A stretch of 64,000 nucleotides of DNA, taken from NCBI GenBank assembly GCA_016873095.1, contig VGYC01000003.1, forward strand, positions 1 to 64,000, in the 5' to 3' direction. Below the pieces are notes generated by a model that saw nothing but the letters and a program-made list of their open reading frames with translations, made no database searches and was not told the origin of the DNA. Position 1 is the stretch's first letter; every line of letters begins with the position of its first letter. Positions 31,044 to 41,123 of the stretch are shown here, in pieces. The stretch is from Planctomycetota bacterium. GTDB lineage: Bacteria > Planctomycetota > Planctomycetia > Gemmatales > Gemmataceae. The position numbers and the translations under genes are program-made.

Positions 31044-31158
31044 TGTCGAAGTTCCTCCGTGGCGATAAGCAAATCACTGCGTCCATCGTGCCATAAAGTC
31101 CCGGCAACCGCAACCAGCAAGTTTGCTGGAATACCCCTGATGATGTCAGGAGAATTTC

Positions 31159-32280
31159 ATGCCCGCCGTGACCGTCGCCAAGCCTGAAGCCATCGGATTG
31201 GACCCGGCTCGCCTCAAGCGTGCCGAGCAACTGATGCAGGAGTGGGTGAATCAGGACCGCATTCCGGCCGCGGGCTGGGTGGTCGGCCGGCGCGGGCGGA
31301 TGATCGAGCCGCGCTTGGTCGGCCGGCAGCGGCCCGCCAAGGAGGCGCCGCCCTTGCGCCGCGATGCCCTGTTCCTCATCGCCTCCATCACCAAGCCCGT
31401 CACGGTCGGCGCCGTGATGATGCTGGTCGAGCGCGGCTTGCTGACGCTGGAGGATCGTGTGGCAGCCTTCGTGCCGCGCTTCGGCGCCAATGGCAAGCGC
31501 GAGGTGCAGATCCGCCATCTCATGACGCACACCTCGGGCCTGCCCGACATGCTGCCCAACAACGAGGCGCTGCGTCGCGCCCATCGGCCGTTCGCGGCGT
31601 TCATCGACGAGGTCTGCAAGCTGAAGCTGTCGTTCGCACCGGGCACGCGTGTCAGCTACCAGAGCATGGGGACCGCCATGCTGGCCGAGGTGCTGCATCA
31701 GGTGACGGGCATCACGCTGGCCGAGTTCCTGCGCCGCGAGGTCTTCGCGCCCTTGGGCATGAAGGACACGTCGCTGGGCTGGAACCCGACGGTGAAGGAG
31801 CGCATCGCCGCCGTCCGTGTGCCACGCGAGATGGAGAAGGAAGACTGGAACTGGAACACGCCGTACTGGCTGGGCTTTGGCGCTCCCTGGGGCGGCCTGA
31901 TCACGTCGCCGGCCGACTTCGCAATCTATTGCCAGATGATGCTCAACGGCGGCGTGCTGGGCACGACGCGCATCTTCAGCCCGGCAGCCGTGCGGGCCAT
32001 GACGCTCAATCAACTCGCGACCATGCCGCAAGTGCCGGAGGAGGAACGCCGCTGCCGGCCGTGGGGCCTGGGCTGGCGGCTCAACTGGCCCGGCCATTCG
32101 TCAAACTTCGGCGACCTGCTCGGCCCACGCACCTACGGCCACTGGGGCGCCACCGGCACGCTGTGCTGGATCGACCCGGACGCCGAAGCATACCTGATCC
32201 TGTTCACCACGCAACCACAGGAGCCGGAGGGACGCTTTCTGGCCAGGTTGTCGAACGTCGTGGCGTCTGCGCTGGTCTAG
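31159..32280 (+). CDS. Serine hydrolase (class C beta-lactamase/esterase family)
   Basis: A 373-residue penicillin-binding-protein-like enzyme. Ser76-Ile-Thr-Lys79 is the SxxK nucleophile motif ('FLIASITKPVTVGAVM'), Tyr167-Gln-Ser169 ('RVSYQSMG') occupies the YxN position, and 'THTSGLPD' and 'GHWGATGT' match the family. There is no signal peptide, so it is probably cytoplasmic; members include esterases, D-amino-acid peptidases and beta-lactamases, and the substrate cannot be read here. The TAG stop is part of the CTAG that begins the repeated sequence at 32277. An AGGAG Shine-Dalgarno sequence precedes the ATG. Confidence 0.9.
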   Translation: MPAVTVAKPEAIGLDPARLKRAEQLMQEWVNQDRIPAAGWVVGRRGRMIEPRLVGRQRPAKEAPPLRRDALFLIASITKPVTVGAVMMLVERGLLTLEDRVAAFVPRFGANGKREVQIRHLMTHTSGLPDMLPNNEALRRAHRPFAAFIDEVCKLKLSFAPGTRVSYQSMGTAMLAEVLHQVTGITLAEFLRREVFAPLGMKDTSLGWNPTVKERIAAVRVPREMEKEDWNWNTPYWLGFGAPWGGLITSPADFAIYCQMMLNGGVLGTTRIFSPAAVRAMTLNQLATMPQVPEEERRCRPWGLGWRLNWPGHSSNFGDLLGPRTYGHWGATGTLCWIDPDAEAYLILFTTQPQEPEGRFLARLSNVVASALV

Positions 32281-36189: not shown

Positions 36190-36636
36190 TTGAGCAAGCG
36201 GTCCCGACGATTGAAGTCGTTTCAACCCGAGCGAGGCCGCAACGGAACACCGGTCGAGGCCCAGCTCATGACCCAGCTTGCCGCTTCTGCGCGCCACGTT
36301 CCTGTCGCATTGCTTATCGAGGCGGACAACCGCGCATGCAATCGCTACCTGTGCGAGCAGGAAGCGGTCACGCAGGCGCTCGATGCCTCGGCGACCATGT
36401 CTTGGGGGGCAACGGTCAAGGACATTTCCGCGGGCGGCATGGGCATTGTCCTGTGCTTCCCCTTCAAGCCGGGCTCGCACCTGGCCGTCGCGATCCAGGC
36501 GATTGAAATCCGCCGCACCTTCCTCGTCCGGGTCGTGCATGTCCTGGACCAGTCGGACGGCACGTGGTTTCTGGGTTGCGAGTTTGTCCGCCAACTCCAG
36601 GACGAAGAGGTTGAAAGAATCCGCCAGGCGTCGTAA
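36190..36636 (+). CDS. PilZ domain protein
   Basis: A 148-residue protein read from a TTG at 36190; an ATG at 36268 is the alternative and would give a 122-residue form. Residues about 70-140 match PilZ: 'WGATVKDISAGGMGIVLCFP' carries the D/N-x-S-x-x-G motif that contacts cyclic di-GMP, followed by 'GSHLAVAI' and 'GTWFLGCEFVRQLQDEEVER'. The RxxxR half of the binding motif is not obvious, so ligand binding is unproven. The nearest PilZ relative in the window is the C-terminal domain of the kinase fusion at 38526-41123, 2 kb away. Confidence 0.8.
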   Translation: MSKRSRRLKSFQPERGRNGTPVEAQLMTQLAASARHVPVALLIEADNRACNRYLCEQEAVTQALDASATMSWGATVKDISAGGMGIVLCFPFKPGSHLAVAIQAIEIRRTFLVRVVHVLDQSDGTWFLGCEFVRQLQDEEVERIRQAS

Positions 36637-37395: not shown

Positions 37396-38169
<774 letters not shown>

Positions 38170-38525: not shown

Positions 38526-41123
38526 ATGATTGTCACGAAGGAAGCGAATGCGGAGCCGATCCCCGGCTACCGGCTGATCGAGCCATTGGGGAGCGGCGGG
38601 TTTGGAGAAGTGTGGAAGTGCGAGGCCCCCGGCGGGCTCTTCAAGGCCGTCAAGTTCGTGTTCGGCGAACGGGACAGCCTGTCCGGGGACAGCGACCGCG
38701 CCGAGGAAGAACTGCGCGCCGTCCAGCACATCAAGGCGCTTCGTCATCCCTTTCTGCTCTCGATGGATCGAGTCGAGTGCATCGACGGCGAGCTGGTTAT
38801 TGTCATGGAGCTGGCGGACCAGAATCTGCACGAGCTGTTGACCCAGTACCAGAAAGCCGGCAAGCAGGGCATTCCGCGCAAGGAATTACTCGGCTACCTG
38901 CGCGAGGCGGCCGAGGTACTCGACCTCATGAACCAGCAGCACCAGCTGCAACATCTGGACATCAAGCCGCGCAACCTCTTTCTGGTAAGCAATCACGTGA
39001 AGGTCGCCGATTTCGGGCTGGTGAACAGCCTGACGGCGCACGCGGACCAGTCGGTGCAGCTGGGAGCGATCACGCCAATCTATGCCTCGCCGGAGGTGTT
39101 TCTCGGCCGTCCCAGCTCATTCAGCGACCAGTACAGTCTCGCAATCGTATACCAGGAGCTACTCACCGGGACGCTGCCGTTCGAGGGCAAGAACGGCCGG
39201 CAACTATTGCTGCAACACACCAAAATGGAGCCCAACCTCAAGGCGTTGCCAGCGAGCGAGCGTGCTACCGTGGGGCGGGCGCTGGCCAAGGAGCCCGAGA
39301 ATCGATTCCCCTCGTGCAAGGACTTCATCGAGGCATTGAGCGGCGAACCGTCGGCGGCGCACCTGTTGCCGACGAGCCCCGCCAAGAAATCCACGCCGAC
39401 CAGGCCGACCGAGGAAACCGCTGCCAATCTGGCAAAGGACACACTTTCGCTCCGTAAGGACGCCCCGATTCCTCGCGATCTCTTGCCCGGCTATCGCTTT
39501 GGCGAATGTCTCGGCCGAAGCACGCTGGTCGACAAGTGGTTGGTGGAACGGCCGGACGGCAAGCAGCGCCTGCTGCAGATTCTGTACGGTTGTCCAAGCG
39601 GCGCTCGACTCGAGCAGGCCGTCGCCCGCCTGCGTTCGCTGCAGTATCCGGGGCTGAAAGAAGCGGAAATTGTCTCGGCCGACACCGGCCGGATCATCCT
39701 GTTGACTGGCCTGGTGAAGGAAACGTTGCGCGACCGTGCCCAGCAGTGCCAGGCGCGGAAACAGCCGGGGATCATGCGTGGCGAGCTGCTGGAATACCTT
39801 GGCTACGCCGCCGAAACACTGGACTATCTCTACGAGCAACATTCGATCCAGCATCTGTGCTTGAACCCGCGCAACCTGGCGCTGCTGCGTGATGGCCGCG
39901 TACAGATCATCGGCTACGGCCTGGCACAGCTACTGTGGTTGCCGGGCGGCCAGGCGGTGGCGCATGTCAATGGCCGTTACGCCGCACCGGAACTATTCCA
40001 GCCCAAGGTTGGCCGGGCCTGCGATCAGTACAGCCTGGCGCTGATATACCACGAGATGCTGACCGGTGCATTCCCTTTCAAGGGGACGACGGCGGTGTCG
40101 GGCAGCGCCCGGCTCACTGTGCCGCCGGATCTTGATCGGCTGCCAGAGCCGGACCGCGAAGTCATTGCCCGCGCCCTCGATCCCGATCCGCACAAGCGCT
40201 GGCCGAGTTGTGCGGCGCTGATCAGGGCCCTGGACGGGACAAAGTCGGAAGTCGAGTCAGTCGCGCGTGGGAACAGCGACTCATTCATCAAGCGCGTCTC
40301 CGAGTCGCGCGCGGCGCCGAACACGATCCCGGTGCAGACGCAGGAGAATCTGAATCAGATCATCGCCGAGATGATTGAAGCCGCAGGTGGCGAAGGCCAG
40401 GGCGGAGATCGCACCGACGCGGCGCCGACGCTGTCGAGGGACGGCGAGGTCCTGCAACACAAGTTTCTTGCCGGCTTGCCGCTGGGCTCGGCGCGGCTGC
40501 GGCTCGAATCGTTCTGTCAGCAATGGTACGGTCAGCTCATCCGTGAGGACGAGCGCGGCTGCGGCTTCACGGTGAACATGCCGCGGAACTTCTGGAATCA
40601 CTGGATCGGCCGGCAGCCGGCTCTGGAGGTGCAGGTGATCCTCGACCGGCCGAATCCGCTGGCCACCACGCCAATCGAGGTCGGGGTGCAGGTTCGCGCT
40701 CTGGGCTGCAGCAGGAAGCGCGCGGCGCAACTCCTGCAAGAGATGGGCCCGTCTCTGCGCGAGAATCTGCGCGCCCACTTGCTCGTCAATTCAGAGAGAC
40801 GGACGCAGGACCGCCTGCTCTGGCCGCACGCGCTCAAGGTTCAGCCGCTCTATCTGGACGGCCGAAAAGGCAGCGTCATCGAGTGCCAGGGCAAGGACCT
40901 GTCGACAAGCGGCATCGGTTTCTTCCTGCCGAACGAACTGGACACGTCGGAAGTACTCATCGAACTGCCCAGCAACGTGCATCCGCCGTCAGTGTCGGTG
41001 CCGGCCACGCTGGTTCGGGCCAAGCGCTGCGCCGATGGGACCTATGAGGTCGGCGCACTGTTCCGGCTGCCCGGACTACGACAGACTCGCGCTCCAAACC
41101 GGTCGCATTTCTCGGCATCTTGA
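38526..41123 (+). CDS. Protein kinase-pseudokinase-PilZ fusion protein
   Basis: An 865-residue cytoplasmic protein with no membrane segment. Kinase 1 (about 15-270) looks active: 'GSGGFGEV' loop 21-28, Lys43 in 'KAVKFV', 'HLDIKPRN' with catalytic Asp145, and Asp162 of 'ADFGLVN'. Kinase 2 (about 323-570) keeps the fold ('PGYRFGECLG', 'LLEYLGYAAETLDYL', 'AAPELF', 'DQYSLALIYHEMLTGAFPF') but has Cys445 in place of the catalytic Asp ('HLCLNPRN'), Gly463 in place of the DFG Asp ('IIGYGLAQ'), no Gly loop and no Lys: a pseudokinase. Residues 640-760 are an unassigned domain. Residues about 764-848 resemble PilZ ('GKDLSTSGIGFFLPNE', 'VPATLVRAKRCADGTYEVGA'), with D-x-S-x-x-G at 791-796. A start at ATG 38526 was chosen; ten more codons are open upstream. 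It probably integrates cyclic di-GMP or another signal with phosphorylation. Confidence 0.88.
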   Translation: MIVTKEANAEPIPGYRLIEPLGSGGFGEVWKCEAPGGLFKAVKFVFGERDSLSGDSDRAEEELRAVQHIKALRHPFLLSMDRVECIDGELVIVMELADQNLHELLTQYQKAGKQGIPRKELLGYLREAAEVLDLMNQQHQLQHLDIKPRNLFLVSNHVKVADFGLVNSLTAHADQSVQLGAITPIYASPEVFLGRPSSFSDQYSLAIVYQELLTGTLPFEGKNGRQLLLQHTKMEPNLKALPASERATVGRALAKEPENRFPSCKDFIEALSGEPSAAHLLPTSPAKKSTPTRPTEETAANLAKDTLSLRKDAPIPRDLLPGYRFGECLGRSTLVDKWLVERPDGKQRLLQILYGCPSGARLEQAVARLRSLQYPGLKEAEIVSADTGRIILLTGLVKETLRDRAQQCQARKQPGIMRGELLEYLGYAAETLDYLYEQHSIQHLCLNPRNLALLRDGRVQIIGYGLAQLLWLPGGQAVAHVNGRYAAPELFQPKVGRACDQYSLALIYHEMLTGAFPFKGTTAVSGSARLTVPPDLDRLPEPDREVIARALDPDPHKRWPSCAALIRALDGTKSEVESVARGNSDSFIKRVSESRAAPNTIPVQTQENLNQIIAEMIEAAGGEGQGGDRTDAAPTLSRDGEVLQHKFLAGLPLGSARLRLESFCQQWYGQLIREDERGCGFTVNMPRNFWNHWIGRQPALEVQVILDRPNPLATTPIEVGVQVRALGCSRKRAAQLLQEMGPSLRENLRAHLLVNSERRTQDRLLWPHALKVQPLYLDGRKGSVIECQGKDLSTSGIGFFLPNELDTSEVLIELPSNVHPPSVSVPATLVRAKRCADGTYEVGALFRLPGLRQTRAPNRSHFSAS

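Follow-up and report, generated by a model that had tools for sequence, protein, structure and literature searches.

A Gemmataceae protein that joins a kinase, a pseudokinase and a PilZ domain: a candidate link between cyclic di-GMP and Ser/Thr phosphorylation

To our knowledge, almost no inputs are known for the about a hundred Ser/Thr kinases that a Gemmataceae genome encodes. The gene described here lies in a stretch of 64,000 nucleotides from a Gemmataceae bacterium (contig VGYC01000003.1, positions 1 to 64,000; hereafter the window) and raises the question of what a kinase, a dead copy of a kinase and a domain resembling a cyclic di-GMP (c-di-GMP) sensor do in a single chain. Our main reading, to which we assign a probability of about one half, is that the product would be a soluble Ser/Thr kinase whose output is set by c-di-GMP, with the pseudokinase as a regulatory or allosteric partner.

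Two kinase folds in one chain

The features of the gene are collected in Table 1. Its ATG agrees with the N-termini of the orthologues, which share the pattern MP-x-EK...EPI-x-GY in the alignment. An earlier note, made from the sequence alone, had proposed a soluble protein with two kinase folds in tandem, and this description held. The Pkinase profile matched both domains, and a hydropathy scan of the 865-aa protein revealed no transmembrane segment, so that the protein is predicted to be soluble. In an AlphaFold2 model based on a nine-sequence alignment, both kinase domains adopt a complete bilobal fold, residues ~630–752 form an alpha/beta domain (domain X) and PilZ is a six-stranded barrel; with a mean pLDDT of 73.9 and a pTM of 0.39, the arrangement of these domains in the model is not reliable.

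Table 1. Positions of the gene, its domains and its motifs in the window
Feature	Position	Strand	Basis
Whole gene, 865 aa, Kinase 1 – pseudokinase – X – PilZ	38526..41123	+	Single open frame; orthologue-supported start
Kinase 1 (residues 15–270), catalytic residues complete, non-RD (HLD)	38568..39335	+	Pfam Pkinase 3.8e-44; residue table
Linker (residues 271–319)	39336..39482	+	Mostly low-confidence in model, pLDDT under 50 at 275–316
Pseudokinase domain (residues 320–572)	39483..40241	+	Pkinase 1.8e-13 on segment; kinase fold in model; clade support
Degenerate catalytic loop HLCLNPRN (residues 443–450), Cys445 for catalytic Asp	39852..39875	+	Residue alignment
Pseudokinase activation segment (residues 463–490): GYGLAQLLWLPGGQAVAHVNGRYAAPEL	39912..39995	+	Fixed length; W471, R484 conserved in family
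Domain X (residues 630–756), predicted strand-helix-strand-strand-(helix)-strand-strand-helix	40413..40793	+	AlphaFold2 full-length model; profile searches
PilZ domain (residues 757–848)	40794..41069	+	Pfam PilZ 24.2 bits on segment; six strands in model
PilZ RxxxR motif (R759–R763)	40800..40814	+	Motif alignment
PilZ DxSxxG motif (D791–G796)	40896..40913	+	Motif alignment

Kinase 1 possesses the complete Hanks-type residue set, K43, E62, D145, K147, N150 and D162, which includes the three residues named in the earlier note, and all of its catalytic residues are kept in the 21 tandem proteins that could be aligned (21/21). From this set and the fold, we predict a working Hanks-type Ser/Thr kinase. 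The catalytic loop reads HLD in 39/39 aligned active members of the family of Kinase 1, whereas five outgroup kinases have HRD. The non-RD state of a kinase points to control by partner domains rather than by phosphorylation of the activation loop; therefore, Kinase 1 is probably switched by contact with its neighbouring domains. Its activation segment varies in both length and sequence.

The second kinase domain retained the fold and lost catalytic residues. In a profile comparison proposed in the earlier note, the isolated segment reached 50.9 bits with Pkinase, above the curated cut-off of 31.7. The residue table confirmed that C445 replaces the HRD Asp, G463 the DFG Asp and Q351 the VAIK Lys, and that the glycine loop is degenerate. 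Neither the HRD Asp nor the HxDxK Lys occurs in any of 31 aligned pseudokinase domains, and five additional copies likewise lack the catalytic Asp, which brings the number of checked copies to 36. The fold core is conserved throughout, with the HRD His, the αF Asp and the αI Arg each present in 31/31 domains. Furthermore, the activation segment comprises 28 residues in 30/31 pseudokinases and follows the pattern L-x-W-x-P-x-G...N-x-R-Y-x-A-P-E (W in 94%, R in 87%). From the alignment, this motif is a gained constraint peculiar to the pseudokinases.

Family variants and the origin of the pseudokinase

A search covering the relatives and the host's order retrieved 25 proteins with Kinase 1 and the pseudokinase in one frame, distributed over 16 genera and two families; one of them is truncated at a contig edge. 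The named relatives with the same architecture derive from Gemmataceae or Planctomycetota metagenome-assembled genomes. Thus, the domain order recurs in other planctomycetes. Its presence in 16 genera, together with the absence of the catalytic Asp from all pseudokinase copies, shows that it is not a product of chance. The complete X-PilZ pair was found only in the host's order; elsewhere in the class and phylum, the matches listed were to either PilZ or X on its own.

Two natural variants accompany the tandem form. Proteins with an active kinase, X and PilZ, devoid of the pseudokinase, occur in several genera and are mostly 600–780 aa long. Conversely, pseudokinase-X-PilZ proteins of 547–602 aa lack Kinase 1. 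One of these is encoded in the genome of the window (L083:5740-7446, G000:C135); this paralogue is so diverged that it matches no Pfam family at E 0.01, and its activation segment is shortened. At another locus (L100:8157-10765), a tandem gene is apparently frameshifted between pseudokinase and X, which is possibly an assembly error.

In the kinase tree, the pseudokinases form a single clade (ultrafast bootstrap 100, SH-aLRT 100), which was still supported (98) when divergent members of two more genera were added. We infer a single origin; the loss of the catalytic Asp was thus probably a single event that predates the divergence of the two families. The stand-alone pseudokinase-X-PilZ proteins of the second family also form a clade. 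In the X-PilZ tree, the X-PilZ part of L084/L085 nests inside the tandem proteins (support 97), and the kinases of the kinase-X-PilZ proteins fall among the tandem Kinase 1 domains, with several of these branches being weak. This suggests that the pseudokinase was secondarily lost in some kinase-X-PilZ proteins. A mirror-tree comparison of domain distances was uninformative, as all domains correlate with each other (r 0.57–0.71).

A conserved operon was considered and rejected: the window genes at ~30–48 kb have no homologues beside other family members, except for one open reading frame (31144–32277) that is also carried by two stand-alone pseudokinase loci (L091, L092). Without a conserved neighbour, the gene context appears to indicate no pathway. 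A FliA/WhiG-type sigma factor gene (37396–38169, +) lies directly upstream of the kinase gene, a pairing not kept in the relatives, and a small PilZ protein (36190–36636, +; 36.3 bits to PilZ) is encoded two genes upstream, likewise not as a conserved neighbour. We found no phage copies of the family, only kinase-level matches on plasmids and no RNA elements near the gene, and promoter and terminator scans at the gene did not rise above chance.

The PilZ domain and domain X

The C-terminal region, which the earlier note had called PilZ-like on account of its D-x-S-x-x-G motif, indeed scores to PilZ. Within the full-length protein it reached 21.1 bits with the Pfam profile, just below the cut-off of 22.5, and as an isolated segment it passed this cut-off with 24.2 bits. 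The second half of the c-di-GMP signature, R759-x-x-x-R763, had been overlooked; together with D791, S793 and G796 the signature is complete. RxxxR and [DN]xSxxG are both intact in 46 of 53 PilZ domains of relatives, namely in 22/28 tandem proteins (fragments included), 8/8 pseudokinase-X-PilZ proteins and 16/17 kinase-X-PilZ proteins. Judging from these residues, the domain looks able to bind c-di-GMP. The genome encodes three GGDEF proteins with an intact GG[DE]EF motif, two degenerate GGDEF proteins and one EAL protein, and is thus predicted to make and break the messenger; it also contains nine PilZ matches.

A second, unrelated kinase-PilZ design in this genome (L144:1086-2303, G000:C18; 406 aa) fuses an active HRD kinase directly to a PilZ domain with RxxxR and DxSxxG. 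Another protein (L143:1003-2187, G000:C60) joins an HATPase_c_2 (anti-sigma/RsbW-like) domain to two PilZ domains. N-terminal FHA domains are present on one GGDEF cyclase and on the EAL protein (L137 and L142; G000:C12 and C358). Since FHA domains read phospho-Thr, they may give Ser/Thr kinases a route to c-di-GMP turnover, and signals may pass in both directions between kinases and c-di-GMP enzymes.

Domain X, predicted from the model to adopt an alpha/beta fold, had been described in the earlier note as a domain of unknown type. Profile searches returned neither a Pfam family nor a PDB relative for it. X recurs, however, in other proteins, both c-di-GMP enzymes and further kinases. An assignment of X to the YcgR-type xPilZ domains, which place an all-beta N-terminal barrel before PilZ, was rejected in view of the modelled alpha/beta fold and the lacking Pfam match. 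A broad X profile matched 201/298 Planctomycetia genomes. Outside the host's order, 20/20 sampled proteins, all chosen from long frames (716–1531 aa), have a C-terminal X preceded by a GG[DE]EF motif, and Pfam detected GGDEF and HD domains in 19/19 scanned proteins of this kind and in three more. Such HD-GYP-(PAS)-GGDEF proteins with a C-terminal X occur across the Planctomycetia (L205-L224, L155-L157 and others), with about one X protein per genome in most. There are also short X proteins, whose 137–261 aa leave no room for a GGDEF-HD-GYP body. In ten Gemmatales genomes, by contrast, all X domains belong to reading frames for kinase-X or (pseudo)kinase-X-PilZ proteins, and no GGDEF protein carries one. 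The Gemmatales kinase-X proteins (444–577 aa; L226-L230, L235-L243, and G000:C9 in the genome of the window) consist of a classical HRD kinase and a C-terminal X, with no PilZ. X is therefore common to c-di-GMP enzymes and Ser/Thr kinases.

Possible mechanism and comparison with known systems

The combination of a kinase, a dead kinase copy and a c-di-GMP-sensor-like domain points to a direct, previously undescribed link between two signalling languages. In the mechanism we propose, PilZ would be the receptor: c-di-GMP held by RxxxR and DxSxxG would alter the packing of PilZ against domain X. Together with the pseudokinase, X would form a regulatory body that holds Kinase 1, the catalytic part, in an 'on' or 'off' state, and would probably also hold a partner through the conserved activation segment of the pseudokinase. 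The natural occurrence of kinase-X-PilZ and pseudokinase-X-PilZ forms shows that the parts can function separately and argues against an indispensable relay role of the pseudokinase. A relay from PilZ to the pseudokinase to the kinase is therefore one option among several, and the pseudokinase may instead, or also, serve as a docking platform. A more specific version, in which c-di-GMP gates the kinase directly through the same-family pseudokinase by an independently evolved JAK-like logic, wired by the X domain common to HD-GYP-GGDEF proteins and kinases, is tentative and in our judgement rather unlikely. X may bind a ligand or pair proteins, for instance the makers of the signal with the kinases that read it; for Bacillus, direct contacts between cyclase and receptor have been described (PMC7064775).

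A serious alternative, though one that we would not bet on, is a scaffold: the pseudokinase would bind a substrate or partner, and c-di-GMP at PilZ would set location or partners instead of the rate of Kinase 1. Stand-alone pseudokinase-X-PilZ proteins without an active kinase, including the clade in the second family, are consistent with this role, as is the fact that the strongest pseudokinase-specific conservation falls on the activation segment, a typical docking surface. Precedents are the MviN pseudokinase as a recruitment scaffold (PMC12599244) and the sequestration of the histidine kinase SgmT by c-di-GMP (PMC3509222). However, 25 proteins fuse the pseudokinase directly behind a same-family active kinase, as allosteric pairs also would. 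The PilZ domain might also have ceased to bind c-di-GMP and act as a protein contact, with Kinase 1 being controlled otherwise. PilZ proteins that do not bind c-di-GMP exist (PMC10333796), the PilZ score lies near the Pfam cut-off, and motif residues are altered in several relatives. We regard this as improbable, since the window's protein and most relatives keep the five signature residues despite a mean sequence difference of about 70% among the PilZ domains of the tandem proteins, and since X co-occurs with c-di-GMP enzymes elsewhere.

Two further explanations concern the second kinase domain itself. It might keep an unusual activity and either bind nucleotides or catalyse a non-kinase transfer of the SelO or SidJ kind, which would agree with the 11/31 members that have both VAIK Lys and DFG Asp. 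Yet the window's copy belongs to the 6/31 that have neither, so that Lys, catalytic Asp and DFG Asp are gone together; a few other copies share these losses of the Lys and the DFG Asp, and one or both residues persist in many relatives. As the clade is not uniform in the residues that it retains, a family-wide activity is unlikely, and we consider the idea as a whole very improbable. The domain evolves faster than Kinase 1 (mean p-distance 0.63 versus 0.45), and some kinase-X-PilZ proteins have probably lost it, as would be expected of a decaying duplicate without function. This last explanation deserves scarcely any credence: dN/dS values of 0.05–0.25 in six close pairs reveal purifying selection, and thus the pseudokinase is not decaying. 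A domain of one ancient origin, retained across two families with a conserved fold core and a gained motif, also argues against decay, which is already refuted at the sequence level.

If a c-di-GMP-set kinase is the true reading, the family would give one Gemmataceae Ser/Thr kinase a defined input and add a bacterial pseudokinase family that is conserved and whose evident partner kinase is part of the same polypeptide. The forms with and without the pseudokinase, and with and without the kinase, would be a natural experiment on what the pseudokinase adds, and domain X would be a handle on the meeting point of c-di-GMP and phospho-Ser/Thr signalling.

Like the protein described here, the JAK family (TYK2, JAK1-3) carries a kinase and a same-family pseudokinase (JH2-JH1) in one chain. 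The top Foldseek match of the model was the TYK2 pseudokinase-kinase structure 4oli, with a TM score of 0.24 and an rmsd of 22, and hence reflects a shared composition and not the same arrangement. The JH2-JH1 domain arrangement was rejected on this superposition and on the order of the domains, which is reversed here with the kinase first. The protein furthermore differs from JAK in being a bacterial Ser/Thr kinase, in its predicted solubility and in having a C-terminal PilZ domain in place of receptor-binding domains. The origins are independent, and the resemblance, the closest among the systems considered, lies in how the systems would work.

Among bacteria, the pseudokinase families ActPs1-3, GLW, CP1, DYD and DLHK (PMC12599244) likewise combine a Hanks-type fold with degraded catalytic motifs. 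Of these, ActPs3, GLW, CP1, DYD and DLHK belong to Actinobacteria, Proteobacteria, Cyanobacteria or Firmicutes and have other partner domains and motifs. None of these five, compared by their text descriptions, fits the window's pseudokinase, and neither PilZ nor Planctomycetes is named in that paper. On the side of the messenger, BcsA-type receptors share a PilZ domain C-terminal to an enzyme with RxxxR and (D/N)xSxxG (PMC10333796); here, the effector is a Hanks-type kinase, with the pseudokinase and domain X in between. A kinase is also controlled by c-di-GMP in CckA, ShkA and SgmT, which, unlike the window's protein, are two-component histidine kinases with other receptor domains (PMC10333796, PMC3509222).

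Kinase 1 belongs to the Gemmataceae kinase expansion of about 100–140 Ser/Thr kinases per genome (PMC11032199) and is close to its ~1200-aa kinases. In their main text, the authors of this Planctomycetota survey report WD40, TPR and other accessory domains, count only domains with K, D and D as 'functional' and mention neither PilZ nor pseudokinases. A PilZ-Ser/Thr-kinase is not among the proteins in the part of the c-di-GMP review PMC10333796 used here. The earlier note knew of no described bacterial protein with this order, and the available text of PMC12599244, PMC10333796 and PMC11032199 contains none either; as the literature covered was open-licence, an earlier mention elsewhere is possible. 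Compared with these systems, each domain is known, and the combination of domains and the pseudokinase lineage appear to be new.
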